DNA of 64,000 bases from Lachnospiraceae bacterium (GTDB lineage: Bacteria; Bacillota; Clostridia; Lachnospirales; Lachnospiraceae), in the NCBI GenBank assembly GCA_022794265.1, contig JAAWEK010000024.1:19780-83779 (forward strand), in the 5' to 3' direction. This document shows, in pieces, positions 10,599 to 45,722 of the stretch. The notes beneath the pieces were generated by a model. The model was not told where the DNA came from. It saw only the letters and a program-made list of their open reading frames with translations, and searched no databases. Positions within the stretch are counted from its first letter, which is position 1. Each line of letters starts with the position of its first letter. A program made the translations under genes and the position numbers.

Positions 10599-10879
10599 CT
10601 AATCAATGAAAAGTTCGTGTTTATCAATATTTTCATCAAACCTAACATTTTCTAATGTGCATTTTACAAAATTTATATACATACCAAGCCGCTTTTTTAA
10701 TCACATTTTCTTTCAAAATACATTCTTTTAGAAAACTTCCGTCAAAATTTGACCCACTTAAATAAACATTTGAAAAATTACATTTATTAAAATGTACACC
10801 GCTAAAAAAGCTATTATTTAAATCAAAATTTGAAAAATTAAACCCTGTAATATCTTTCCGTTTCAAAGTGTTGATTCAT
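10599..10879 (-). pseudogene. Pentapeptide-repeat protein gene broken by two frameshifts
   Basis: The middle part (about 10644-10866, minus strand) encodes repeats of the A(N/D)(L/F)xx type, such as FNFSNFDLNNSFF and CNFSNVYLSGSNFDGS. No ATG starts this frame; it begins at a TTG. An ATG at 10877-10879, behind AGGAGG at 10898-10903, opens a different frame (MNQHFETER) that stops quickly. At the other end the repeat frame stops early. The adjacent frame continues as NFVKCTLENVRFDENIDKHE to a stop at 10599-10601, which reads as the true C-terminus. The simplest explanation is an intact ancestor of about 90 residues that acquired two single-base indels. Pentapeptide proteins fold as right-handed beta-helices; some bind gyrase, but no function can be assigned to a broken copy. 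Confidence 0.7.
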
Positions 10880-10936
10880 TTGTAACCTACCTTATTTCCT
10901 CCTAATAATATATCTTACTAGGTCGAGTTGTTGCAA

Positions 10937-11190
10937 TTATGTTATATCACAACAATCTACTATGATTGTTCCATAGGTTTTCCTTTTTCTGTATGCAAAA
11001 TCATCAATGAGACATGTAACAGACTCTTTATTAGGAACTGGTGTATTTTTTTAGAGATTGCAGATGGTGCTTTTGCCCACATTCACAATTCTGTTTTTCA
11101 GCGTACTTGAAGCAGAAATAGAACTGGTATTCAGAGAAATATACATGATCCTGTCAATTGGGCGTTTTGCTTTTTGCCATTCTGTTTCAG
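10937..11190 (-). pseudogene. ISL3-family transposase remnant
   Basis: Reading the minus strand in one frame from about 11190 to the stop at 10937-10939 gives a peptide containing KNRIVNVGKSTICNL, an in-frame stop codon, then TPVPNKESVTCLIDDFAYRK followed by RKTYGTIIVD. The 'DDFAYRKRKTYGTIIVD' region is the first catalytic-aspartate block of ISL3-family (DDE) transposases, and the preceding part matches their helix-turn-helix region. The N-terminal zinc-binding domain and everything after the first DDE block are missing, so only about 80 codons remain. I recognised this by eye from family knowledge. It marks past insertion activity at the left edge of the defence island. No terminal inverted repeats were found. 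Confidence 0.7.
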
Positions 11191-11282
11191 AAAATCAAAC
11201 TGTTTTGCAAAGGGGGGGAACCAAATGTTTGACCACAACATAGTGACCTCTGTTATTTCTTGTCAAGTAATAAAAAAATTAA

Positions 11283-11311
11283 TTGACGATATAAAACTGC
11301 GGTACTATAAT
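11283..11311 (+). promoter_or_regulatory. Sigma-A promoter of the Z1/MORC-like defence operon
   Basis: TTGACG (11283-11288) and TATAAT (11306-11311) are separated by exactly 17 bp. This predicts a start near 11318 and a leader of about 45 nt before the TTG start at 11364. It is one of the best promoter matches in the window, suggesting constitutive or readily available expression. Confidence 0.75.
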
Positions 11312-11363
11312 TATTGTAGAAAAATAGGACATTTTATCAATAAAATATTGAGGAGGGTTAAAA

Positions 11364-14171
11364 TTGCCAGATTTTGGGTTACCAATATATGACCAACATA
11401 GACAATGGATTAGAAATGCACATATGACTGAAAAGAAAACTTGGGATGAAATATTTATGGGATGTGCAGAAGATGAAGAGGGATTAATGACTTTTCTGAA
11501 TCATCAGGTTATGATGAATTTCTGGAAAAAGATTACATGTGAGGACTGGAAAGCTCTTGTACAACTTGAGAAGGAGGCAGAGGAACAGACTAGGCAGATG
11601 GATATTTTGAGTGGACACGCTTTGATATTCAATTCAGGTGAGGAAAACGATACTAGAATATCTACTGATCCAAATTCAGCGTGGCAGCTCTATAGAAAGA
11701 AACTTCTGTCAGATGGTTTCAAAAAGGAAACTGTTGAACAGATGGAAAGAAATACATATCGTATATTAAAGAAATTGAGCGTTGATACAACACAGATTGA
11801 TCCGGTAAAAGGCCTTGTTATTGGTAATGTACAGTCTGGAAAAACTGCAAATATGGCAGCGTTGATGGCTATGGCAGCAGATTGTGGATGGAATATGTTT
11901 ATTATTCTATCGGGTACAATTGAAAACCTTAGACAGCAAACTCAAAATCGTTTATTAAATGACTTGAATTGTCCAGGAAATTTAAACTGGATTGGACTTG
12001 AACATTTATCAAAGAAACCGGCACTAGGACAGAGAGCACAAGATTTACATTTCGAAGATAGTTCCAAGCAGCGTTATTTTACTGTGTGTTTGAAGAATTC
12101 GGGACGACTTAGAGGTCTTATTCAGTGGCTACAGTCAGATGCAAATAAACAGAAACAGATGAAGATCCTTGTTATTGATGATGAAGCAGATCAGGCAGGA
12201 ATAAATACTGCAGATATAAAAAGTTCTACAATCAGAACAATTAATAGATTAATTAGAAATCTTGTTAATGGAAAAAATGTAACGTCTGAGGATATAAAAA
12301 CTAAGTATCGTGCGATGAATTATATAGGATATACAGCAACGCCATATGCGAATATTTTAAATGAATCAAGCGAAGATTCATTATATCCACGTAATTTTAT
12401 TTCAACATTAAGTGTATCAAAGGAATATTTTGGACCTCAGCAGATTTTTGGGTTAGAAGGTGGCGAGTATGATTATGATGGTCTTGATATAGTGAATATC
12501 ATAAATGAGAATGATCTTGAAGCAATAAAGGGTATTCATGAAGAAGGCTCTTTATATGTACCGTTCGCATTACAAAACGCTATTTGTTGGTTTATGTGTG
12601 GTGTTGCATGTATGAGAGTTTGGAATTATAAGAAACCAATAAGTATGCTGATACATACAAGCCAAAAAACGGATCACCATGGAAATATAGCAGATGCGAT
12701 AAAAAAATGGATTTCAAGCAGAACAACAGATGATATGATAACAAAATGTCAAAAAGTATGGGAAGAAGAAACACGAAAATTTACATTTGAAAAATTTAGA
12801 GAACAATATCCAGATTATGATAGAAAAGATAATGAACTTTACCAATATCCTTCTTTTGAAGATTTAATATCACAATTGAAGATTCTTTTGAAGACAGAGG
12901 TTTCAAATATTCCTTTAGATAAGGAAGAAGATCTTACATATCATGAAGGTATACATATGTGTATTGATAACTGTAAAAATAATGGTGTGAATGATGATGG
13001 AATGTATGTACGGCTTGCGTATCCAACATTAGAAAATATGCCATCTCCAGCACCTGCTTTTATTGTAATTGGTGGAGCTACATTATCAAGGGGTCTTACA
13101 ATTGAAGGTCTAATAAGTACATTTTTCTTACGTTCTGTAAGCCAGGCAGATACATTGATGCAGATGGGAAGATGGTTTGGTTATAGAAGAGGATATGAGC
13201 TTTTACCTAGATTATGGATTACATCAAAAACAAATGAGCAGTTTAAATTTTTGTCTGCACTTGATCAAGAACTTAGAGATGAAATACATGAAATGGAAAC
13301 TTTAGGGAAGAGTCCGGCGCAGTATGGTCCTAGAGTGAAAAATACTCCCAAGGCAAGTTTTATAAGAATTACAGCAAAGAATAGAATGCAGAATGCAAAA
13401 CCGACAGATATGGATTTTAGTGGTTCGTTTAATCAGACGTATTTGTTTGATAATGATGCTAATATTTTAAAAAATAATATTGCTGTTGTTGAGGAATTTA
13501 TTGCTTCATTAGGAACTCCAGAAACTCATAAAGAATGTAACCCTCATGCAGAGAATAGTATTATATGGAGAAATATAGAATTTTCTTTGGTTAAAGAATT
13601 ACTAAAAAAATATAAATTTAATCAAAGATTAGGTGTGTTTAATGATATCGATTCTGTTATATCATGGATTGATAAAATAACAGCAGATGGAAAACTAGAT
13701 GCATGGAATATTGTTTTAGCCGGCAAGGGTAGTAATGAAAATTCAGTTTGGGAAACTCCGGCAGGTTCTGTTAATAAAGTAAGTCGTACACGCAAGAAAC
13801 TAAAGAATGAAGCAGATACAGTTTTAAATATTGGTGTTTTAAGAGATCCAAAAGATGTAATAGCTGATGTTGATTTAGAAGGAAAGAGTCAAGATATTAT
13901 TGCGAAGGTTACAAACTTTCAGGCAAAATCTTCTAAAGAAATCCGTAGTTTAGCAGGTTTGGATACAACACCACAGATAATTATTTACATGATTGATAAG
14001 AATTCTGCAACGAGTTCAGAAAGTAGAATAAATTTAGAGGCCGTTGAGGATATTGTTGGCATTTGCATGAACATACCAGGAGGAAAAAGAGGTACAGATT
14101 ATACGGCAACTGTATCAATGCATTTAAGAAATGATATTTTTGATGATGAAGGAGATTTGGAGGGAATGTGA
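11364..14171 (+). CDS. Z1-domain superfamily II helicase/ATPase (defence)
   Basis: Translation starts at a TTG (11364), 7 bp behind a perfect AGGAGG. The 935-residue protein carries SF2 motifs in order: Walker A GNVQSGKT (154-161), Walker B IDDEAD (271-276), motif III TATP (324-327), then GGATLSRGLTIEGL (about 570-583) and the arginine-finger region MQMGRWFGYRRGY (about 599-611). The GGATLSRG...MGRWFGYR block is the hallmark of the Z1 domain. Z1 proteins occur in prokaryotic operons with MORC/MutL-like ATPases and endonucleases (described computationally by Iyer, Abhiman and Aravind) and in MZA-type defence systems. It is the first gene of the operon and overlaps the next gene by one base. 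It probably translocates on or remodels phage DNA; the biochemical role is inferred. Confidence 0.9.
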   Translation: MPDFGLPIYDQHRQWIRNAHMTEKKTWDEIFMGCAEDEEGLMTFLNHQVMMNFWKKITCEDWKALVQLEKEAEEQTRQMDILSGHALIFNSGEENDTRISTDPNSAWQLYRKKLLSDGFKKETVEQMERNTYRILKKLSVDTTQIDPVKGLVIGNVQSGKTANMAALMAMAADCGWNMFIILSGTIENLRQQTQNRLLNDLNCPGNLNWIGLEHLSKKPALGQRAQDLHFEDSSKQRYFTVCLKNSGRLRGLIQWLQSDANKQKQMKILVIDDEADQAGINTADIKSSTIRTINRLIRNLVNGKNVTSEDIKTKYRAMNYIGYTATPYANILNESSEDSLYPRNFISTLSVSKEYFGPQQIFGLEGGEYDYDGLDIVNIINENDLEAIKGIHEEGSLYVPFALQNAICWFMCGVACMRVWNYKKPISMLIHTSQKTDHHGNIADAIKKWISSRTTDDMITKCQKVWEEETRKFTFEKFREQYPDYDRKDNELYQYPSFEDLISQLKILLKTEVSNIPLDKEEDLTYHEGIHMCIDNCKNNGVNDDGMYVRLAYPTLENMPSPAPAFIVIGGATLSRGLTIEGLISTFFLRSVSQADTLMQMGRWFGYRRGYELLPRLWITSKTNEQFKFLSALDQELRDEIHEMETLGKSPAQYGPRVKNTPKASFIRITAKNRMQNAKPTDMDFSGSFNQTYLFDNDANILKNNIAVVEEFIASLGTPETHKECNPHAENSIIWRNIEFSLVKELLKKYKFNQRLGVFNDIDSVISWIDKITADGKLDAWNIVLAGKGSNENSVWETPAGSVNKVSRTRKKLKNEADTVLNIGVLRDPKDVIADVDLEGKSQDIIAKVTNFQAKSSKEIRSLAGLDTTPQIIIYMIDKNSATSSESRINLEAVEDIVGICMNIPGGKRGTDYTATVSMHLRNDIFDDEGDLEGM

Positions 14172-16255
14172 TGAAGATTGAAATAGCAGAACCTGGAAGA
14201 ATGACTCAATCAGGCAGTTCACTATTAAAATTAATTCAAAATAATAATATGCCAATATTGGATCTGCTTGTTAGAGAGTCGATTCAAAATAGCTTAGACG
14301 CAAAAAATGAGTCAGATGCATTTGTTTCTGTTGATTTTTTGACTGGTATGTTCGATAAGGCGTCATTAAATGCTGAACTGGATAGAATAACTAATTCATT
14401 AAATCAAAGATATGATAATGACAAATACAAATATATTGCTATTAGGGATTTAAATACAGTTGGACTCACTGGAAAGCTACATTATGATGATGTAATAGAT
14501 AATCAATACGGAAATTTACTAAAATTGATATATGAGATCAGTAAGCCACAAGAAGCAGAGGGCGCGGGAGGTTCATGGGGACTTGGAAAAACTGTTTATT
14601 TTCGAGTTGGAATTGGTCTTGTAATATATTATAGTAGGATTATAAATGAAAATGGACAATATGAATCACGACTTGCAGCCTCTCTTGTAGAAAATGAGAT
14701 GGAGAAAGATGCTTTGATTCCTGCATTAGATGGTAAGTCCAAGAGGGGCATTGCATGGTGGGGAGAAGAAATAGGAAATAACAAAACAAGACCGATAACA
14801 GATGAATCATACATAAAATATATACTAGATATATTTGGAATTAAACCTTATGAGCAAGATAAGACAGGAACGACAATTATTATTCCATATATTGATGAAG
14901 ATGTTTTATTAAATCATAATCAAATAGAGTATAAGGATGGCGAAGATAATGTGATTCATCCATATTGGAGAAGTAATATTGAGGAATATTTAAAAATTGC
15001 AATCCAAAGATGGTACGCACCTAGATTAAATAATATTAACTATAGCTACGGAAAATTTTTAAAAGCAAAAATAAATGAAACCGGTATTTCTTTGGATGTT
15101 ATGGAGCCAGCATTTCAGATTGTGCAAGCATTATATAATAGAGCAATTGGAAAGAAAGTTGGAGAAGATATACTTGATCATACGGGTGTTGAAACAAAAG
15201 CTGAAGACATTATTTTAAGAAAGGTACTTAATACAACAAAGGCTGGTACGGTTGCATATACGAAGGTTTCAAGAAATATTTTGAAAACGGGATTTCCGGA
15301 TAACAAACCTGAACCGTATATGTATTATAACTGCGAAATCAGAGAAAAAGATAAAAACAAACCAGTAGTATTTTTTACCCGTAAACCTGGTATGATTGTA
15401 TCTTATCAAGATGTAGGAAACTGGGTTGATGGAATTAGCTCATCAAACAGAGATGAATTTATTATGGCGATTTTTGTTTTGAATTCTGATAATACGCTTA
15501 CAGTGGATGAGCCAAATTACAGACTTGAAGAATATATAAGAAAAAGTGAAAGGGCTGATCATACCTCATGGAGTGATTTTAGTATGGGGAGTTTTAACCC
15601 AAGAATTGTTTCAAAGGTTCAAGGGCAAGTGATTAGTAAGATATCAAAGGAATTTTCGATAGAGGGAGAAGAGACTACAAGTAAATTTAATTCGGGACTT
15701 GGAAAAATGTTTGGAGATCTTTTGTTGCCACCAGAGAATTTTGGCAAGAAACCCAGTTCGGGTTTGGGACCTTCACCAAAACTAGGCTCTAACTTGAAGA
15801 AGCATAAAAATGTATTATTTGGATATGATTCTGCAGACATAGAATATTATGCTGGTGGAATGATCGTGAAATTGATTATCAAGTCTAAAAAGAAAATAGA
15901 ATCAACAGGAGTTGTTGTAGCTATTAATTCAGAATCTGGAACTATTAATCATAGTGAATGGGAAAATAAAATGGGACTAACAATGCCATTTGAAATTATT
16001 AAAGCTGATATAAAGATAAAAAGATTAGATGAGTATGATATAAATTCTGAAATAACTGTAGATAAAGATAATGTATCTGCAAGTGATGAAAAAATCAGCT
16101 GTACGCTGAACAAATCAGACAAAGAAAAAGGTTATGGCGTACACATAGAAATGGAAAAAGAACATTCGGTTGAAATAGAAATTACTGTTAAACTTAAGTT
16201 TAACAGAAGAGATGTAAAACCGTTATTTATGATAGAAAAGGATGGTGATAAATAA
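14171..16255 (+). CDS. GHKL ATPase (paraMORC/MutL-like) of the defence operon
   Basis: The ATG at 14171 overlaps the previous stop as TGATG; a GTG one codon earlier (14168) is also possible. The product is about 694 residues. The N-terminal Bergerat ATP-binding fold is visible: N-box RESIQNSLDA with Glu36/Asn40/Asp43, a diverged G1 box IRDLNTVGLTG at 91-101 (Asp93 present), and G2 box GGSWGLGKTVYF at 133-144. The remainder is unique to the family. GHKL proteins of this sort dimerise on ATP binding and act as clamps around DNA. With the Z1 helicase upstream and a PD-(D/E)XK protein downstream, it fits the paraMORC partner of a restriction-like complex. The C-terminal part (after ~residue 540) looks beta-rich and could mediate complex formation. 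Confidence 0.8.
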   Translation: MKIEIAEPGRMTQSGSSLLKLIQNNNMPILDLLVRESIQNSLDAKNESDAFVSVDFLTGMFDKASLNAELDRITNSLNQRYDNDKYKYIAIRDLNTVGLTGKLHYDDVIDNQYGNLLKLIYEISKPQEAEGAGGSWGLGKTVYFRVGIGLVIYYSRIINENGQYESRLAASLVENEMEKDALIPALDGKSKRGIAWWGEEIGNNKTRPITDESYIKYILDIFGIKPYEQDKTGTTIIIPYIDEDVLLNHNQIEYKDGEDNVIHPYWRSNIEEYLKIAIQRWYAPRLNNINYSYGKFLKAKINETGISLDVMEPAFQIVQALYNRAIGKKVGEDILDHTGVETKAEDIILRKVLNTTKAGTVAYTKVSRNILKTGFPDNKPEPYMYYNCEIREKDKNKPVVFFTRKPGMIVSYQDVGNWVDGISSSNRDEFIMAIFVLNSDNTLTVDEPNYRLEEYIRKSERADHTSWSDFSMGSFNPRIVSKVQGQVISKISKEFSIEGEETTSKFNSGLGKMFGDLLLPPENFGKKPSSGLGPSPKLGSNLKKHKNVLFGYDSADIEYYAGGMIVKLIIKSKKKIESTGVVVAINSESGTINHSEWENKMGLTMPFEIIKADIKIKRLDEYDINSEITVDKDNVSASDEKISCTLNKSDKEKGYGVHIEMEKEHSVEIEITVKLKFNRRDVKPLFMIEKDGDK

Positions 16256-17193
16256 TGGCAGCGAATATTTCATTATTTCCCACAATAAATGACGAGTTGC
16301 TTGGAAAAATAAGATTTCAGCCTTCTTTGTATGAGTTTTATTATGTTAGAGCAGATCAGGAATATCCACTAAGAGCAGAGGCAATTGATAGTAGTGTAAC
16401 AGTGCATAAGATAGTAGATGACGAAGGAATATGGGCACCAGACGATTATAATTTATGTGTAAAGAGACGTTATTCATTAAGAACATATCAGTGTTTGTTT
16501 GGAGAAAATGGAATTGCATGCAAAAATGCTGTACTTGGACTAGCATTGATGTGGACCTCAGCTGATTCAAAACAAAGAGGGGTCATACCGATTGGGGATA
16601 TAGAAAATTCTCAGAGAGATATTGATATGAATCTTAATTATGAGTTTTTAGAAGCGCAACTTCGTGGCGAAGTAGAATTTACCACAGTCGTATATTTAAA
16701 AAATGTAGGAACTCCGTTATGGAATGAAGAACATTTGGCTGATGAATACGGATGTTTACTTGGTGAACTGGATAAATTTGTTATAAAACTTGATGGAAAT
16801 GGTTCGGTATTTCCTATGTATGAAGTAAATGATCCATCTCAACCATTGTGGTATGTAAAATGTGATTGGGAAGACCCTACTTATGAACAGTTTTCAGAGT
16901 GTGTTTCGATATATATTAATACTGCACATAAGAATTATAAATATCTTGATAAGACAAAGAAAACATTTGATGAACAGTTATTAAAAGAAATAATGGCAGG
17001 TGCTTTGATTGTTATCATAACAAAACTTAAGGAACAAGAAAACTATTGGTCCGCAACAACAACAGGAGATGATCTTCAAAGTGGAAGTGTTTCAGCAGCT
17101 GTTTATTATTTTATAAATGCATTGGAATGGGATGTATCAACTTTGGATGCAATGTCATTGTCAATTAGAAAATTTTTTGACCAAAGGATGTAA
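16255..17193 (+). CDS. Unknown component of the Z1/MORC-like defence operon
   Basis: A 312-residue protein starting at ATG 16255 and overlapping the previous stop as TAATG, so it is probably translationally coupled. No catalytic motif is evident: no Walker box, nuclease triad, signal peptide or membrane segment. The N-terminal 200 residues are mixed alpha/beta with many tryptophans and tyrosines. The C-terminal ~90 residues (from FDEQLLKEIMAGALIVIITK) are helical. Its fixed place between the GHKL ATPase and the methyltransferase suggests a structural or targeting subunit. MZA-type systems contain an unknown 'DUF' subunit of comparable position, but I cannot show homology by eye. Confidence 0.7.
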   Translation: MAANISLFPTINDELLGKIRFQPSLYEFYYVRADQEYPLRAEAIDSSVTVHKIVDDEGIWAPDDYNLCVKRRYSLRTYQCLFGENGIACKNAVLGLALMWTSADSKQRGVIPIGDIENSQRDIDMNLNYEFLEAQLRGEVEFTTVVYLKNVGTPLWNEEHLADEYGCLLGELDKFVIKLDGNGSVFPMYEVNDPSQPLWYVKCDWEDPTYEQFSECVSIYINTAHKNYKYLDKTKKTFDEQLLKEIMAGALIVIITKLKEQENYWSATTTGDDLQSGSVSAAVYYFINALEWDVSTLDAMSLSIRKFFDQRM

Positions 17194-17199
17194 AAACAT

Positions 17200-17922
17200 A
17201 TGATTATAAAAACATTAAATCGTTCTGAATCACAGACGGCAATGAATGATTGGTTGGCAAATTATCCAACGTTACCACAAGTTGAAGGCGATTACATAAA
17301 GATTAGAACTGATATTCAGGAATTCTGTAAAAGGGTGAGAGAAGAATGCCCACAAGACATAGCAAAAAAGGACTACTACATAGATGCACATCTTGGCATT
17401 TTGTTATATGACTATTTATGGAGACAGCCTGGTTTTAATTTAAGGGCAGCAGCAAATGACGACTTTTGGAGATATCTTTCTATAAAAGTTGTTCCAAATG
17501 TTGTTGCTGACAGATGGGGAAAAGACAATGAAAGTCATTATTGGAGTAAACCTGCAAGAATATGGCTTAGGTCTCTTTGGTGGTATGTACATTTATCATG
17601 GCAGGGAGATATGAAAACAACAGCGAAAGTCTTGGAATCTCCTTGTTTTACAACAGATAGTATTTTAAATCTTGAAGAAAGAACGGGACGTAATGGCACA
17701 TTTATCAACGTGTACAGATATATTATGTATTACTATAGTAGAGTACCACAGGATGTTCTTGAAGATTATAATAAGAATACAAAATCGCAGAGTGATGGAT
17801 TATTTCGAATTGTAATGAAATTAAATACTGTCAAAAGTGTTGTAATTGATCCAGCATTATATCTTGGAGGGGAAAAAGAATACGTTAGAGCATTATTTAT
17901 GGATGCGGGGGTACGTGTGTAA
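17200..17922 (+). CDS. Unknown defence-operon protein (possibly DUF6339-like)
   Basis: This 240-residue protein starts at ATG 17200 behind AAAGGATG and ends in a TAATG overlap with the methyltransferase. It is rich in aromatic residues: DAHLGILLYDYLWRQPGF, DDFWRYLSIKVVPNVVADRW, and ARIWLRSLWWYVHLSWQG. The pattern 'DDFWRYLS...RW...RIWLRSLWW' recalls DUF6339-type proteins found in defence loci, but that is a recollection and not a secure match. No catalytic residues can be named. The coupling to the m5C methyltransferase start argues that it works in the same complex. Confidence 0.65.
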   Translation: MIIKTLNRSESQTAMNDWLANYPTLPQVEGDYIKIRTDIQEFCKRVREECPQDIAKKDYYIDAHLGILLYDYLWRQPGFNLRAAANDDFWRYLSIKVVPNVVADRWGKDNESHYWSKPARIWLRSLWWYVHLSWQGDMKTTAKVLESPCFTTDSILNLEERTGRNGTFINVYRYIMYYYSRVPQDVLEDYNKNTKSQSDGLFRIVMKLNTVKSVVIDPALYLGGEKEYVRALFMDAGVRV

Positions 17923-19253
17923 TGATGCCTAATGTTATAGATTTATTTTCTGGATGCGGAGGATTGGCTTTAGGATTTGAAAAAGCTGGTTTTGATATTG
18001 TTGCGGGAATCGAGCTAATGCCTGAGGCTTGTAAGACAATATCATATAATCTTTCTTGGCGGTATGGAAAAGAAGAAACACATATCTGTGGAGACATTAC
18101 AGAGATAGATGGTAAGATTTTTAAGGATAGAATTGGTGAAGAGGGTTGTATTGTTATTGGTGGACCACCTTGCCAAGCATATTCTATGGCAGGGAGAGGA
18201 AAACTGAAATCTCTTGGGGAAGAACGTGTAAATATAAAAGATGCACGCGGATATTTATATCAGGATTTTTTGAGATTTGTATTTGATATGGATGCAAGGG
18301 CCGTTGTTATGGAAAATGTTCCTGAGTCAACAAACTTTGGAGGACAGAACATACCAGAAATTGTATGTAAAAAATTAACAGAACATGGATATGTGGCATA
18401 TTGGACAATATTAAATTCTGCTGATTATGGAGTACCACAAGTAAGAGAAAGAGTATTTGTAATTGCTATTAAGAACGAGGAAACCAAAAGAGTAAAATTA
18501 CCAATGCCTACAAATCGAAGCATTACGGATGAACTTACACAACATCAGAAAAGATTTGAAGGTTATAAGTCATATACTTTTTTCGAAGAGCCAAATGGAA
18601 CAGAGGGCATAGAAAAAACATGGACAACTATTGGAGATGCTTTTTCTGATCTACCAATTTTGTTTCCAAATGCCAAAACAAAGTATAAATCGGTTGCATT
18701 AAATATTGAATATCCATATAGAAGTGAAGCTCAAAATGAGTTTCAAACAATGATGAGAAATTGGTATGGTAAAGAGATATTTGGTGTTTCAGCAAATTCT
18801 TTTAGAAGAAATACAAGAGATTTTCCTATATTTGAGAGAATGAAACAAGGAGATAATTATATTGCTGCATCGAAAATTGCAGATGAATTATTCGAGAAGG
18901 AAGCTAAAGTATTTGGATATGAAAGGGATAGTGAAGAGTATATAAAGCTTCATGACAAAATGGTTCCTCAGTATGACAGGGAAAAATTCGAAAATAAATG
19001 GAAACGATTGGATGAGTTAAAACCATCACATACTTTAGTAGCTCATTTGGCAAAAGATACTTATAGTCATATTCATCCATGGGAACCAAGAGGAATATCT
19101 GTAAGAGAGGCGGCGAGAATCCAGTCCTTTCCGGATGATTTTTACTTTGATTGTTCCATGGGAGATGCATATAAACAAATAGGAAATGCTGTGCCGCCAT
19201 TACTTGCTTTGGGTGTGGCAAAAGCTGTATACCATACTTTTAAGGAGGATTAG
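17922..19253 (+). CDS. DNA (cytosine-5) methyltransferase 1
   Basis: A 443-residue enzyme transferring a methyl group from S-adenosylmethionine to C5 of cytosine in DNA. All main motifs are in canonical order: motif I DLFSGCGGLALGFEKAGF (SAM binding), motif IV GGPPCQAYS with catalytic Cys84, motif VI MENVP, motif VIII QVRERVFVIA, motif IX ISVREAARIQSFPDDF and motif X QIGNAVPP. The target-recognition region between VIII and IX is long (about 170 residues), so recognition specificity cannot be inferred. It starts with ATGATG overlapping the previous stop by one base. It probably protects the host DNA from the operon's nuclease activity. Confidence 0.93.
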   Translation: MMPNVIDLFSGCGGLALGFEKAGFDIVAGIELMPEACKTISYNLSWRYGKEETHICGDITEIDGKIFKDRIGEEGCIVIGGPPCQAYSMAGRGKLKSLGEERVNIKDARGYLYQDFLRFVFDMDARAVVMENVPESTNFGGQNIPEIVCKKLTEHGYVAYWTILNSADYGVPQVRERVFVIAIKNEETKRVKLPMPTNRSITDELTQHQKRFEGYKSYTFFEEPNGTEGIEKTWTTIGDAFSDLPILFPNAKTKYKSVALNIEYPYRSEAQNEFQTMMRNWYGKEIFGVSANSFRRNTRDFPIFERMKQGDNYIAASKIADELFEKEAKVFGYERDSEEYIKLHDKMVPQYDREKFENKWKRLDELKPSHTLVAHLAKDTYSHIHPWEPRGISVREAARIQSFPDDFYFDCSMGDAYKQIGNAVPPLLALGVAKAVYHTFKED

Positions 19254-19257
19254 TTAT

Positions 19258-20157
19258 ATGGGAATACTTGAAGAAATCAGAGAGTGTTTTGCATCGACTC
19301 AGAATGGTGCAAGAGATTTACGATCACTTTCAAAAGAATTTCCGGCAATGGTTATTAGAAATAATGATGGCTATGGTGTTGCGATAGAGTTTAATGATGA
19401 GAGAGATATATCAGAAAACTTTGCAAATAGCCGATTGTTTACACAGATAATCAGGATTGAAAATGATGAAAGGAAATACCTTATCTTAAGTTGTATGAGG
19501 GATAGCCTGAGATATGAATTTGCAACTGTATGTGCACAATTTGTTGAGCCAGGGCTAGATGGCATTGAAAGAAAAAATCTGTTGGATGATCCACTTAACT
19601 GGTGGAAACAATGGCGAGAATTGATGGGAAATACTATATCAAACAGGGAGGCATATAGTGTTATAGCAGAAATGATGGTTTTGGATGATTTATATAAAAA
19701 AGATAATTCAGTAGAATGGGCTGCAGTGATATCTGGAAGTCATGATATAGAAGGAGATCAGGGAAGTTATGAAGTTAAATCGACAATAAAAAGATATGGA
19801 GCTTCAATAACTATCTCAAGCCAGCATCAACTGCAGAGTTTAAAAAGACTATATTTGTATTTTTGTCGATTGGAACAGTCGAAAGAAGGTGTTTCAATAA
19901 ATGATATGAAAAATAAGTTAGTTGAAGATGGTTATGATAAAGAAAAAATAGAACAGCAACTTTTTCATCTTGGGTATGAGAAAGGTGCAAGTGTTAGAGA
20001 AGATAAATATAAAGTTTTAGAAAAGAGAAAGTACGAGGTAGACGATAAATTTCCAAGAATAGTGGATTCATCATTTAAGGGAGATCATATTCCAGATTTG
20101 GTGACACAGATAACATATACTATTGATTTAGATGGCTTGGAATACAACGTATGGTGA
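19258..20157 (+). CDS. PD-(D/E)XK motif protein (DUF4420-like), putative nuclease
   Basis: The start is ATG 19258 behind AAGGAGG, four bases after the methyltransferase stop; an earlier in-frame start lies inside that gene. The product is 299 residues. The nuclease signature is seen as EGDQGSYEVKST: Asp167, Glu172 and Lys174 form the D...ExK core. The N-terminal RNNDGYGVAIEF segment and the overall length fit the DUF4420 'PD-(D/E)XK motif protein' family that accompanies Z1 and MutL/MORC-like genes. It is the best candidate for the DNA-cutting subunit of this operon. The C-terminal third contains a winged-helix-like stretch (VSINDMKNKLVEDGYDKEKI). Confidence 0.85.
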   Translation: MGILEEIRECFASTQNGARDLRSLSKEFPAMVIRNNDGYGVAIEFNDERDISENFANSRLFTQIIRIENDERKYLILSCMRDSLRYEFATVCAQFVEPGLDGIERKNLLDDPLNWWKQWRELMGNTISNREAYSVIAEMMVLDDLYKKDNSVEWAAVISGSHDIEGDQGSYEVKSTIKRYGASITISSQHQLQSLKRLYLYFCRLEQSKEGVSINDMKNKLVEDGYDKEKIEQQLFHLGYEKGASVREDKYKVLEKRKYEVDDKFPRIVDSSFKGDHIPDLVTQITYTIDLDGLEYNVW

Positions 20158-20171
20158 ACTGAGGAGAAATA

Positions 20172-21434
20172 ATGTTTAGAGTAATTGAAACCTTTAGTGG
20201 AATAGGTAGCCAGGCAAAGGCATTATATAATATCAGTAGTAATTATGAAATTGTAAATACAGCAGACTGGGATATAAATGCGATATCGGCATATTGTATG
20301 ATACATAAAGGAAAAATAGATACAGAGAAATATAAGGATGTAAGTGATTCTGATATAATTGAATTCCTGAAGGGATTTACTCTTAGTTCTGATGGTAAAA
20401 AGGCTATGAATGAAAAGTCATTTTCAAGGCTTCCAATGGAAGTTAAAAGAATGTTGTATTCTGCTATTAAGGAAACAAACAATCTTGTAAGTATAACTGA
20501 TATAAAAGGTTGTGATATACCTGAAAATATTGATTTATTTACTTATTCATTTCCATGCCAGGATTTATCACTTTGTGGTTGTTGGCATGGAAATAAGAGT
20601 GGTATAGCTAAGGATGCTCATAATCGTTCTGGAATGCTTTGGGAAGTTGAGAGAATTTTGCTTGAGATGCGTGAAGACAGACGGCAGCTTCCACGATTTC
20701 TAGTCATGGAAAATGTATGTAATATTTTATCGAAACCGCATGAAGAGGATTTTGGGAACTGGAAATCTACTTTAAGTGAGTTGGGATATTACAATAAAAT
20801 ATACAGATTAAATGCTAAAAATTTTGGTATTCCACAAAAAAGGGAACGCGCTTATATGATAAGTATTTTGTGTAACAACAATGAAGATATGATTACAAAG
20901 ATTGAGAATTATTTTTTTGAAAATAATCTTGAAGATGTTACTGTAGCAAATACGATAAAGAGAAGAAAATTAATGCTTAAAGATATTTTATGTTTAGATT
21001 ATAAAAATAATTCTGCATACAAGAAGGAAGCAGATGCAAGTAAACCAAATGATACGCCATCAAGAAAGAAGATATATGAGGATAATGATATGCTTTATGA
21101 TGGAAAGCAGATTAATGAGATTTTTGTAAATACAGTAACGACAAAACAGGACAGAAATCCAAATTCAGGTTTAATAACATATAAAAACTATGCTAGAGGG
21201 AAGACAAAATGGAGATACCTCACTCCAAGAGAATGTTTTAAGCTCATGGGGTTTGATGAAGCAGATTTTGAACATGTAATTAGTAATAATCCACAGATTA
21301 CCAAGGGCAGAACAATGTATTCAACAGAAAAGCTTATTAAAATGGCGGGAAATAGTATTGTTGTTGATGTGTTGGAAGCAATATTTAAACAGATTATGGA
21401 AATTAATAAAGAGTTTTTTGGCGAAAGAGAATGA
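20172..21434 (+). CDS. DNA (cytosine-5) methyltransferase 2
   Basis: A 420-residue second m5C methyltransferase, distinct from the upstream one. Motif I is ETFSGIGSQAKAL, motif IV is SFPCQDLS with catalytic Cys129, motif VI is MENV, motif VIII QKRERAYMISIL, motif IX LTPRECFKLMGF and motif X KMAGNSIVVDVL. An insert of about 50 residues lies between motifs I and IV. Translation starts at ATG 20172 behind GAGGAGA, 14 bases after the PD-(D/E)XK gene. Two unlike cytosine methyltransferases in one operon suggest an asymmetric recognition site needing one enzyme per strand, or two recognition sequences. Which applies cannot be read from the sequence. Confidence 0.92.
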   Translation: MFRVIETFSGIGSQAKALYNISSNYEIVNTADWDINAISAYCMIHKGKIDTEKYKDVSDSDIIEFLKGFTLSSDGKKAMNEKSFSRLPMEVKRMLYSAIKETNNLVSITDIKGCDIPENIDLFTYSFPCQDLSLCGCWHGNKSGIAKDAHNRSGMLWEVERILLEMREDRRQLPRFLVMENVCNILSKPHEEDFGNWKSTLSELGYYNKIYRLNAKNFGIPQKRERAYMISILCNNNEDMITKIENYFFENNLEDVTVANTIKRRKLMLKDILCLDYKNNSAYKKEADASKPNDTPSRKKIYEDNDMLYDGKQINEIFVNTVTTKQDRNPNSGLITYKNYARGKTKWRYLTPRECFKLMGFDEADFEHVISNNPQITKGRTMYSTEKLIKMAGNSIVVDVLEAIFKQIMEINKEFFGERE

Positions 21435-21993
21435 CAACTAATCAAAAGAAATCATTAATGTTGCTTTTTCCTGTCAAAATATAATGACGAAACGTTAAGC
21501 TGTATAAGTATAAGAAATTAACAGGGGCATTAATGATTTGTCGGATAAGCTAAAAGGTGTAGAGATGGATTTGATATATTCTTTGATAACGGATGAGTTT
21601 GTTACAAAAACTAACAATTGATGTAGGAATAAATATATTAGAAATGGATTAAGTTATTGTTTAATCAATAGTCTTATTAAGCTAATCGCATTATTGATGG
21701 TAACGTTGATAAAAAAATCATTTTGATGAGTTAAGATTTTAATATATAATAAGAGTGTTTCATTAAATAAAAAATATTAAGAAGTGTTTAAGATAAAAGT
21801 GGATAGAGAAAAAATAAATATGTTTAAGAATATTCATACATATAAAGGTTTAATTTGCGGGGTAAGTGCAAGGGAGGCTTTAATTGTAAGCTGAATCTGA
21901 AATTTTATTGTTAAGCATAAAAGAGAAAACTTTACAGTTTCAAAATTGGAGAGGGTGCTGGATAATGGAGAGATTGTGTGGAAGAGAGGTGAT
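21435..21993. other. Decayed spacer between methyltransferase 2 and vsr, with a fragment resembling the helicase wreck
   Basis: No intact gene is seen in these ~560 AT-rich bases. At 21557-21577, 20 of 21 bases match 22472-22492 inside the helicase remnant downstream of vsr. The matching frame reads RCRDGFDI with FFDN soon after, like the helicase TDGFDIYQLFD segment, so this appears to be a more decayed copy. Another coding-like scrap (around 21821-21891, reading YKGLICGVSAREAL) is not identified. The DNA is otherwise low-complexity. Confidence 0.5.
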
Positions 21994-22455
21994 ATGATGG
22001 ATGTTTTAACAAAAGAGCAGCGTAGAAAGAATATGCAGCATATCAAAGCTAAAGATACAAAAATTGAAATTATACTTAGAAAAGCTTTGTGGGAAAAAGG
22101 ATACCGTTATAGAAAAAATTATGACAAACTTCCTGGTAAACCGGATATTGTTTTGATAAAATATAAAATCGCTATTTTTTGTGATGGAGAATTTTTTCAT
22201 GGTAAGGATTGGGAAGTGCTTAAACCAAAGCTTGAAAAAAGTAATAATGGACAATTTTGGATAAGTAAAATATCAAGAAATAGGGAACGTGATGATGAAA
22301 TAAATAAGAATTTGTTATTTGAAGGATGGACAGTTATTCGCTTTTGGGGTGATGAAATAAAAAGGCATACAGATGAGTGTGTAAAGGTTATTGAGGAAAC
22401 AATCTTTAATATACAAATGAATGATATGGATATGCAATATAGTAACATTGAATGA
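21994..22455 (+). CDS. vsr: Vsr-type very short patch repair endonuclease
   Basis: A 153-residue protein, normal for Vsr, starting at ATG 21994 (or the next ATG, 21997) behind GAGAGGTG. It carries the family's N-terminal TKEQRRKNMQHIKAKDTKIE segment, the GKPDIV motif with the likely catalytic Asp51, and the metal/cofactor region FCDGEFFHGKDW with His69. Vsr nicks 5' of T in T:G mismatches that arise when 5-methylcytosine deaminates, and so offsets the mutagenic effect of m5C methyltransferases. Its place after two such enzymes fits. It is separated from them by 560 decayed bases, so it may have its own promoter or have been acquired separately. Confidence 0.92.
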   Translation: MMDVLTKEQRRKNMQHIKAKDTKIEIILRKALWEKGYRYRKNYDKLPGKPDIVLIKYKIAIFCDGEFFHGKDWEVLKPKLEKSNNGQFWISKISRNRERDDEINKNLLFEGWTVIRFWGDEIKRHTDECVKVIEETIFNIQMNDMDMQYSNIE

Positions 22456-22853
22456 CGGCGACAAGCCTAGAGTGTACAGATGGATTTGATATCTATCAGT
22501 TATTTGACCACCATATTGCATATGAGATTCGTTTACAAAAAGCATTAGAGGAAATATGTTATATCCTTTTCATAACTTTGGGGTAACAGAAAAGAGGATA
22601 CTAGACAGTGGCTTTAACAGAAGAGGACAGTTAGGAAAGTCAGAGAGAATGCAATTGCAAAGTTAGAGAAGGATAAACGAGAAAATGGATTAGATTATAT
22701 TTTTACGGTAGATAGTTTTAATGAATAGATATCCCATGTGTAAAACAAGTGGTAATGCTTCAACCAACGGAATCAGCCATGTGTTATAGAAAGAATTATT
22801 CTAGTCCTTATATGAATACCTGTTTTCAATTGTATGCAAAGTATACAAATTAA
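22452..22853 (+). pseudogene. SF2 helicase remnant (DUF3427-associated DEAD/DEAH type)
   Basis: Four peptide pieces in different frames fall in the order expected for this helicase family. Piece 1 (from 22452) reads TATSLECTDGFDIYQLFD then HHIAYEIRLQKALEE, corresponding to motif III TATPERTDGFDI. Piece 2 (from 22556) reads MLYPFHNFGVTEKR. Piece 3 (from 22648) reads AKLEKDKRENGLDYIFTVD then SFNE. Piece 4 (from 22725) reads IDIPCVKQVVMLQPTESA and, after a gap, RKNYSSPYMNT. In intact relatives 'FTVDxFNEGIDIP' is motif V and 'QQLGRGLRK' (motif VI) follows; here motif VI is deleted. Everything before motif III and after this point is gone. The start codon region overlaps the vsr stop. Recognition is from memory of the family. 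Confidence 0.75.
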
Positions 22854-22888
22854 CCCAAATACAATCCGAATGAAAGAAGGCCAATGAA

Positions 22889-42814: not shown

Positions 42815-44095
42815 TTGCAAAATGCCCTTCTTTCAGACTTTTTACAGGGCAGTGTCACAGGCAGGTCTGTGATATGCATGGGTTCAAGTATGTATATGCA
42901 AAGCAAAGGTATTACACTTCTTCATACAGCTGATCTTCATCTTGGTTTTTTATATGGCGGTTTAAAAGAAAAGGCGGCGGAACGGCAGCAGGATAATCAG
43001 GAGACCTTTCTCTATATAATTTCACTCTGCCGGGAGCGGAATGTAGATATCCTGCTGATAGCTGGTGATTTATTTGATACGCCGGTACCAGACAGGGAAC
43101 TGTTAAAGACCGTAAGAAAAGCATTTGCTGTCATTTCTGAAACACTTGTGGTAATCAGTCCGGGGAACCATGATTACTATGAGCCGGGGGGCATTTATGA
43201 TGATATAGAATCCTGGAGTGATAATGTATTCATTTTTCATGGCGAAATGGATTGTTTTGAATTTAACATCAGGGGTGAGACTGTCCGGATATACGGAGCC
43301 GCCTTTACCGGGCAGTATCAGCGGGAGCCGCTGATGAAGCAGCGAAGACTGACCGGAGACGGGGTTATTTCCATTGGTCTGTTTCACGGAGAACTGGGAA
43401 CCGGCGGCTGGGATTCAAAGTATAACCGAATCACTCCGGAACAAATAGAAGAGAACCGGTTTTCCTATACGGCGCTGGGACATATACACCGTGCGGAAGG
43501 TATTTCTTATGCAGGACAGGCAGCATATGCATATTGTGGAAGCCCGGAGGGACACGGCTTTGATGAGACCGGAGGAAAAGGCGTCTGGCTGGGAAGCATT
43601 ACCGGAGAAGAGTGTAATCTGGAATTTTTCAGAACCTGCAGAAGGCAGTATATTGTGGAAAAGATTTGCATTGAAGGTTTTGAAAGTGCAAAACAATTGG
43701 CTGATTACCTTCTGCTTTCGTTTCGAAACCGGTATGGCGGGGAATATAAAGATTATTTATATCAGTTGAAATTTTACGGCAGTAACAGACAGGATATAGA
43801 TTTGGAGCGTGTCGGATTCTGTTTAAGAGATTTATATTATATTGAAATCAAAGATGAGACAGAAACGGTTTTAAAAGAATACAGCAGGGATTCCGGGGAG
43901 AAGTTTAACAGAATCCGGGACGAAAAAAGGACGACAGGGAAGGATTCTCTGGAAGTATATTTTGAGGAACGGATGCGGCGTCTGATAACTGCGGAGGAAG
44001 CCAGGGAAGACCGGGATGAAAACAGGATAAAACGGTATCGGAGAGCATTGCAGCTTGGATTGGAAGCTGTTTTAAATGACAGAAGGAAGGGATAA
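42815..44095 (+). CDS. SbcD/YhaO-like metallophosphoesterase (DNA repair exonuclease)
   Basis: About 426 residues from a TTG at 42815 behind AAAGG; an ATG near 42878 is another possible start, since the recognisable protein begins at GITLLHTADLHLG. The five calcineurin-type metal motifs are in order: HTADLHLG, AGDLFDTP, SPGNHDYY, FHGELG and LGHIHRAE. This is the Mre11/SbcD fold as in YhaO-type proteins, which pair with a Rad50/SbcC-like ATPase to cut DNA ends and hairpins. The partner gene begins four bases after this stop. The SOS-type box upstream fits a role in repair. Confidence 0.88.
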   Translation: MQNALLSDFLQGSVTGRSVICMGSSMYMQSKGITLLHTADLHLGFLYGGLKEKAAERQQDNQETFLYIISLCRERNVDILLIAGDLFDTPVPDRELLKTVRKAFAVISETLVVISPGNHDYYEPGGIYDDIESWSDNVFIFHGEMDCFEFNIRGETVRIYGAAFTGQYQREPLMKQRRLTGDGVISIGLFHGELGTGGWDSKYNRITPEQIEENRFSYTALGHIHRAEGISYAGQAAYAYCGSPEGHGFDETGGKGVWLGSITGEECNLEFFRTCRRQYIVEKICIEGFESAKQLADYLLLSFRNRYGGEYKDYLYQLKFYGSNRQDIDLERVGFCLRDLYYIEIKDETETVLKEYSRDSGEKFNRIRDEKRTTGKDSLEVYFEERMRRLITAEEAREDRDENRIKRYRRALQLGLEAVLNDRRKG

Positions 44096-44099
44096 AGTA

Positions 44100-45722
44100 T
44101 TGCGGATTTTGGATATACATATTGGCTGTTTCGGCGGCATTCAGAACTTGAAACTCAGTTTTAAAGACGGATTTCAGATTATCTATGGTGAAAATGAATA
44201 CGGAAAATCTACAATCATGTCTTTTATACACTTAATGCTTTACGGAAAAAATTCAAAAAGCCGGGACCTGAATCAGAACCTGAGAAAAAAATATACTCCG
44301 TTTAACGGCAGTAAAATGAACGGCAGTATGCGGTGGGAGATAAAAGGGCATAGTATCAGGATAGACAGGGAGTTTGGGAAAACCCAGGCAAATGATATTA
44401 TTTATGTTTTTAATGAAACCCTTGGGACGGAGCTTCCGGTTCCTGCGGGAATGGAAATCGGTGAATATTTGCTGAATATGAATGAAAAAATATTTGATAA
44501 GGTTATCTTTGGGGGAAGTCCCGAGGGCGATATGGGAACCGGAGCAGAAGAAATCATGTCGGGGCTGGTCAATATGGGAGCTGCCGGAGATAAAGAGGTA
44601 TCTGCAGCTGATATACTGGAGAATTTAAATGCCGGCATGGAGCAATTAAAAAGCAAACGGGGCACATCAGGCAGTATTCCGCGTATCAGTGAAGAAATAT
44701 CACGCATGAATGAAGAGAAATCTCAGTTGAATCAGAGAAAGAAGGAACTGGAACAGATTCGGAGGTCGGATATTTCCATGGTGGATAAAGAAAAGACATT
44801 GCTTAGGAATCTGATTATCCGCCTGGAAAATGAAAGATATCCGGCAGAAATGCAGAATAGAAATGAATCAGATGGAAAAAGGACAGAAGTAAACAGAGGA
44901 AGAAGGGGACTGCATTTTATATCGGCAGTTGTGTGTCTAGTGTCCGGTATACTCCTGATTGGAAATGGAAAAGGAATCTTTGGAGGGGAGGGATACGGAT
45001 ATGTTGCCGCATTTATACTGTTTCTGGCGGGAACCGGATTTCTGGCTGCTGCCGGGCGAAAAAGTCATGTGACTGTAACCGAAGAAGAATCCGGGGAATA
45101 TTCCGAAAAAATAAATGAATTATTGGATGATTTAGGGTATAATGGATATTCATCAGAGGATTTAAAAGCCAGACTGTGGGAACTGGAACATTCGGAGGAA
45201 GAGGATTTATCTGCAATGATACAGCGAATCCGTCAGGAAATTGAAGACTGTCAGATTCGGCTTACACAGTTGCGGAAGAAAAGGGAAGAACTGACAGAAG
45301 AATACGAAGCATATAAGATTACTGTTTCCGTTATGCAGGAATGCGCGGCTGAACTGCGTTCTACGGTATTCCAGCCGTTAAACGATATGGCAGGGGAGAT
45401 TTTTTTCCGTCTTACGGATGGACGGTATGACGGTTTTATGGTAGACGAACAGTATCAGATCCGGGTGCGGGAAAGAAATGATGCCTTGTACCGGGTATGG
45501 AAGAATCTGAGTATGGGAACTGCAAACCAGGCATATCTGTCGCTTCGCATCGCAGTAAATGAAATGTTTTCCGGACAGGAAAATATGCCGCTTTTGCTGG
45601 ACGATGTATTGTCAAACTATGACGAAAAGCGGGCAGAACGGGCCGTGCAGGTATTAAAAGAAAGAGGAGGACAGGTGATACTGTTTACCTGTCATAGAAA
45701 TCTGATGCAATTTTCAATGTAA
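44100..45722 (+). CDS. SbcC/YhaN-like ATPase
   Basis: A TTG at 44100, 8 bp behind AAGGAAGGG, gives a 540-residue protein beginning MRILDIHIGCFGGI; the in-frame ATG at 44076 overlaps the upstream gene and is less likely. Walker A is GENEYGKST (30-38), and the C-terminal half has the signature-like NLSMGTANQAYLSLRIAV and Walker B LLLDDVLSNYD. Between them lies a much shortened coiled coil interrupted by a hydrophobic hairpin (LHFISAVVCLVSGILLIG and YVAAFILFLAGTGFLAAAG), as in YhaN-type proteins. It presumably forms a membrane-associated nuclease complex with the preceding protein. Confidence 0.85.
   Translation: MRILDIHIGCFGGIQNLKLSFKDGFQIIYGENEYGKSTIMSFIHLMLYGKNSKSRDLNQNLRKKYTPFNGSKMNGSMRWEIKGHSIRIDREFGKTQANDIIYVFNETLGTELPVPAGMEIGEYLLNMNEKIFDKVIFGGSPEGDMGTGAEEIMSGLVNMGAAGDKEVSAADILENLNAGMEQLKSKRGTSGSIPRISEEISRMNEEKSQLNQRKKELEQIRRSDISMVDKEKTLLRNLIIRLENERYPAEMQNRNESDGKRTEVNRGRRGLHFISAVVCLVSGILLIGNGKGIFGGEGYGYVAAFILFLAGTGFLAAAGRKSHVTVTEEESGEYSEKINELLDDLGYNGYSSEDLKARLWELEHSEEEDLSAMIQRIRQEIEDCQIRLTQLRKKREELTEEYEAYKITVSVMQECAAELRSTVFQPLNDMAGEIFFRLTDGRYDGFMVDEQYQIRVRERNDALYRVWKNLSMGTANQAYLSLRIAVNEMFSGQENMPLLLDDVLSNYDEKRAERAVQVLKERGGQVILFTCHRNLMQFSM

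Follow-up and report, generated by a model that had tools for sequence, protein, structure and literature searches.

A probable restriction-modification operon with two cytosine methyltransferases and a decayed HNH endonuclease gene in a Lachnospiraceae bacterium

In a 64,000-nucleotide stretch of DNA from a Lachnospiraceae bacterium (contig JAAWEK010000024.1; hereafter the window), we identified a gene cluster encoding a Z1 helicase, a GHKL-like ATPase and two 5-methylcytosine (m5C) DNA methyltransferases, M1 and M2. This cluster, a mobile one in a gut-type bacterium, probably serves to methylate the DNA of its host and to attack phage DNA that lacks the mark. The operon is real and was acquired laterally; it is probably functional in restriction-modification, as a member of a candidate type already in the literature. 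Operons of this kind have already been predicted; the present copy has in addition a second methyltransferase, M2, which is co-inherited with the operon, and the remains of a further nuclease gene, that of an HNH endonuclease, now dead. The features are as follows.

11283..11311, + strand: promoter-like site TTGACG-17-TATAAT, called from sequence (11/12 matches, the best among 58 sites of the region)
11364..14171, + strand: Z1 helicase gene, 935 amino acids (PF10593, 7.3e-58; PADLOC MzaC, 2.8e-56; motifs)
14171..16255, + strand: GHKL-like (paraMORC2-like) ATPase (motifs I-IV and ExxxH; PADLOC PDC-M33A, 3.9e-9)
16255..17193, + strand: P3, 312 amino acids, conserved in place among relatives
17200..17922, + strand: P4, 240 amino acids
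17922..19253, + strand: M1, m5C DNA methyltransferase, 443 amino acids (PF00145, 2.3e-63)
19258..20157, + strand: DUF4420 PD-(D/E)XK nuclease-like protein, 299 amino acids (PF14390, 2.0e-30)
20172..21434, + strand: M2, second m5C DNA methyltransferase, unlike M1, 420 amino acids (PF00145, 2.9e-51)
21435..21945, + strand: remnant of a decayed HNH endonuclease gene (many stops, HNH core missing; tblastn 8e-8 over 21380-22100; DNA matches)
21994..22455, + strand: Vsr-type mismatch endonuclease (PF03852, 1.7e-31; TIGR00632, 8.1e-41)

The frames of the seven block genes, from the Z1 helicase to M2, and of Vsr are all open, and their catalytic motifs are kept. In the GHKL-like ATPase, motifs I-IV and ExxxH (E461, H465) are invariant in 8/8 aligned sequences (alignment A7), and the literal ExxxHT pattern matched 11/12, the miss being the related locus L047. 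We set the start of this protein at a conserved ATG, 14171 (MKIEIAE); the listed open reading frame begins at a GTG, 14168. A Pfam search with it gave no match, nor did its A1 profile against the PDB, and a profile comparison (hhalign) with the MzaB type was negative. M1 shares its PCQ, ENV and QxRxR motifs with 11/11 orthologues, and the D..EVKS motif of the DUF4420 protein is kept in 11/12; the start of the latter, 19258, was placed from the related loci L009-L011 together with sequence, the listed frame beginning at 19186. The closest relative of M2 in the PDB is 4dkj (E 1.4e-51). A phage-borne element was considered and rejected, the GHKL-like protein having no relative in viral_contigs (A1 patterns) or in phages; a single weak match was found in plasmids.

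M2 and Vsr are separated by a 511-bp gap without a long frame. At the same place L009 (Coprococcus comes), L010 and L011 (Lacrimispora) carry an intact gene of 250-251 amino acids directly after M2 and before Vsr, and the L009 product matches HNH endonuclease families (PF13391, 2.7e-5; PF01844, 1.2e-4). The gap in the window matches these proteins in pieces, in different frames and interrupted by stops (best E 8e-8 when the flanks are included and 2.7e-7 without them), so the window once had the HNH gene; in a shuffle control, 3/200 shuffles reached E<0.01, the lowest being 0.001. The Vsr frame is already open from a TTG at 21946, and the initial annotation's placing of vsr within a tightly packed operon was rejected.

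The gene order of L009-L011 and the remnant raise the possibility that two systems have merged here, the core and M1 forming one restriction system, and M2, the HNH endonuclease and Vsr a separate, adjacent type II m5C system of which M2 and Vsr survive. This account, which we regard as a serious though not a favoured one, also gains from Paenibacillus L014 and L015, where the core and M1 occur without M2 and are followed by HpaII-like or NgoFVII-like endonucleases, a third methyltransferase and Vsr. However, M2 is retained in L007, L013, L016, L046, L047 and, up to the contig end (636 bp available), L012, where the same search found no HNH copy or remnant beside the block; in L047 the core is accompanied by M2 only; and M2 co-varies with the core like the other six block genes (r 0.93-0.97).

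Methyltransferases accompany DUF4420, being present in 21/23 loci with it and in 1/6 without it, and methylation as a self mark, which the initial annotation suggested, would fit this association. The proposal that the methyltransferases and Vsr set the locus off from MZA-like loci was rejected. An MZA-like or abortive defence without methylation guidance, in which the ATPases sense a different phage signal and the adjacent methyltransferases serve a purpose of their own, is unlikely: P4 and DUF4420 flank M1, which lies inside the operon with an overlap of one base, and the methyltransferases track DUF4420. None of the MZA parts MzaA (sigma factor), MzaB (ATPase) and MzaE (AIPR) was found among the eight proteins of the cluster, and the matches to MzaC and MzaD scored 259.7 and 56.4 bits, below the NCBIfam cut-offs of 1500 and 420. 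No AIPR is present in the operon or the assembly, as the initial annotation had held for the locus. In L016 (Butyrivibrio hungatei), the block is flanked by AIPR immediately upstream and, immediately downstream, by a Swt1-like HEPN protein (L016:4943-7159 and 17319-19436).

The initial annotation was partly confirmed in what it observed and partly supported in its interpretation: its family calls and its restriction-like reading after Iyer, Abhiman and Aravind stood. As far as the consulted portion of their 2008 paper goes (PMC2292703), the paraMORC2-type operons share with the window a superfamily 2 helicase with the DThhQXuRhFG motif, a protein of restriction endonuclease (RE) fold, a GHKL protein with ExxxH, cytosine methylases, Vsr and Gram-positive hosts; that portion of the text does not name P3 or P4, and the figure has uncharacterised X and Z domains. 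The candidate defence system 'Type I' (PMC9523054, Nat Commun 2022; attributed to Miller, Stern and Burstein), as excerpted, likewise combines a PD-(D/E)XK protein and a cytosine methyltransferase in one operon. Its three additional genes would correspond, by count alone, to the GHKL-like ATPase, P3 and P4, and to this set the window adds M2 and the HNH remnant. CglI and NgoAVII, in the available extract of PMC4267653, comprise three genes with a PLD-B3 endonuclease; none was found among the eight proteins of the cluster, whereas L015 has an endonuclease of this kind directly behind the same core.

P3 is predicted to fold as a beta-sandwich followed by C-terminal helices (predicted local distance difference test, pLDDT, 84.9; predicted template modelling score, pTM, 0.57), and a fold search gave no convincing match. 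P4, predicted to be all-helical (pLDDT 86.9, pTM 0.84), matched nothing in the PDB at E<=0.001; its profile matches DUF6339 proteins in L038, L039 and L049 at about 1e-6 to 1e-5, which points to a distant DUF6339 relative.

A functionless, decaying island in which only the methyltransferases matter, as one dead gene in the wider cluster and flanks degenerate by eye (10650-11280 and 22460-22880) might suggest, is very improbable given the open frames and intact catalytic motifs of the seven block genes and Vsr. Window positions 10650-10870 (- strand), adjoining the operon promoter, hold two 23-nt direct repeats 60 bp apart and by eye resemble a fragment of a pentapeptide-repeat gene. Positions 22460-22880, between Vsr and a NUDIX gene, have no long frame and are possibly another decayed island gene. 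Elsewhere, an AAA_23/SMC-like ATPase (44076-45719) following a metallophosphoesterase (42815-44092) looks by eye like an SbcCD-like pair.

Predictions of this type of operon date from 2008 and 2022; a literature search, with subscription journals and preprints mostly outside it, found no paper reporting an experimental test. The locus is a compact, apparently intact copy, and among its natural relatives M1 or M2 may be absent or the neighbouring endonuclease exchanged. Direct tests can therefore be made of which methyl mark is protective, which subunit does the cutting and whether a type II partner is required by the ATPases.
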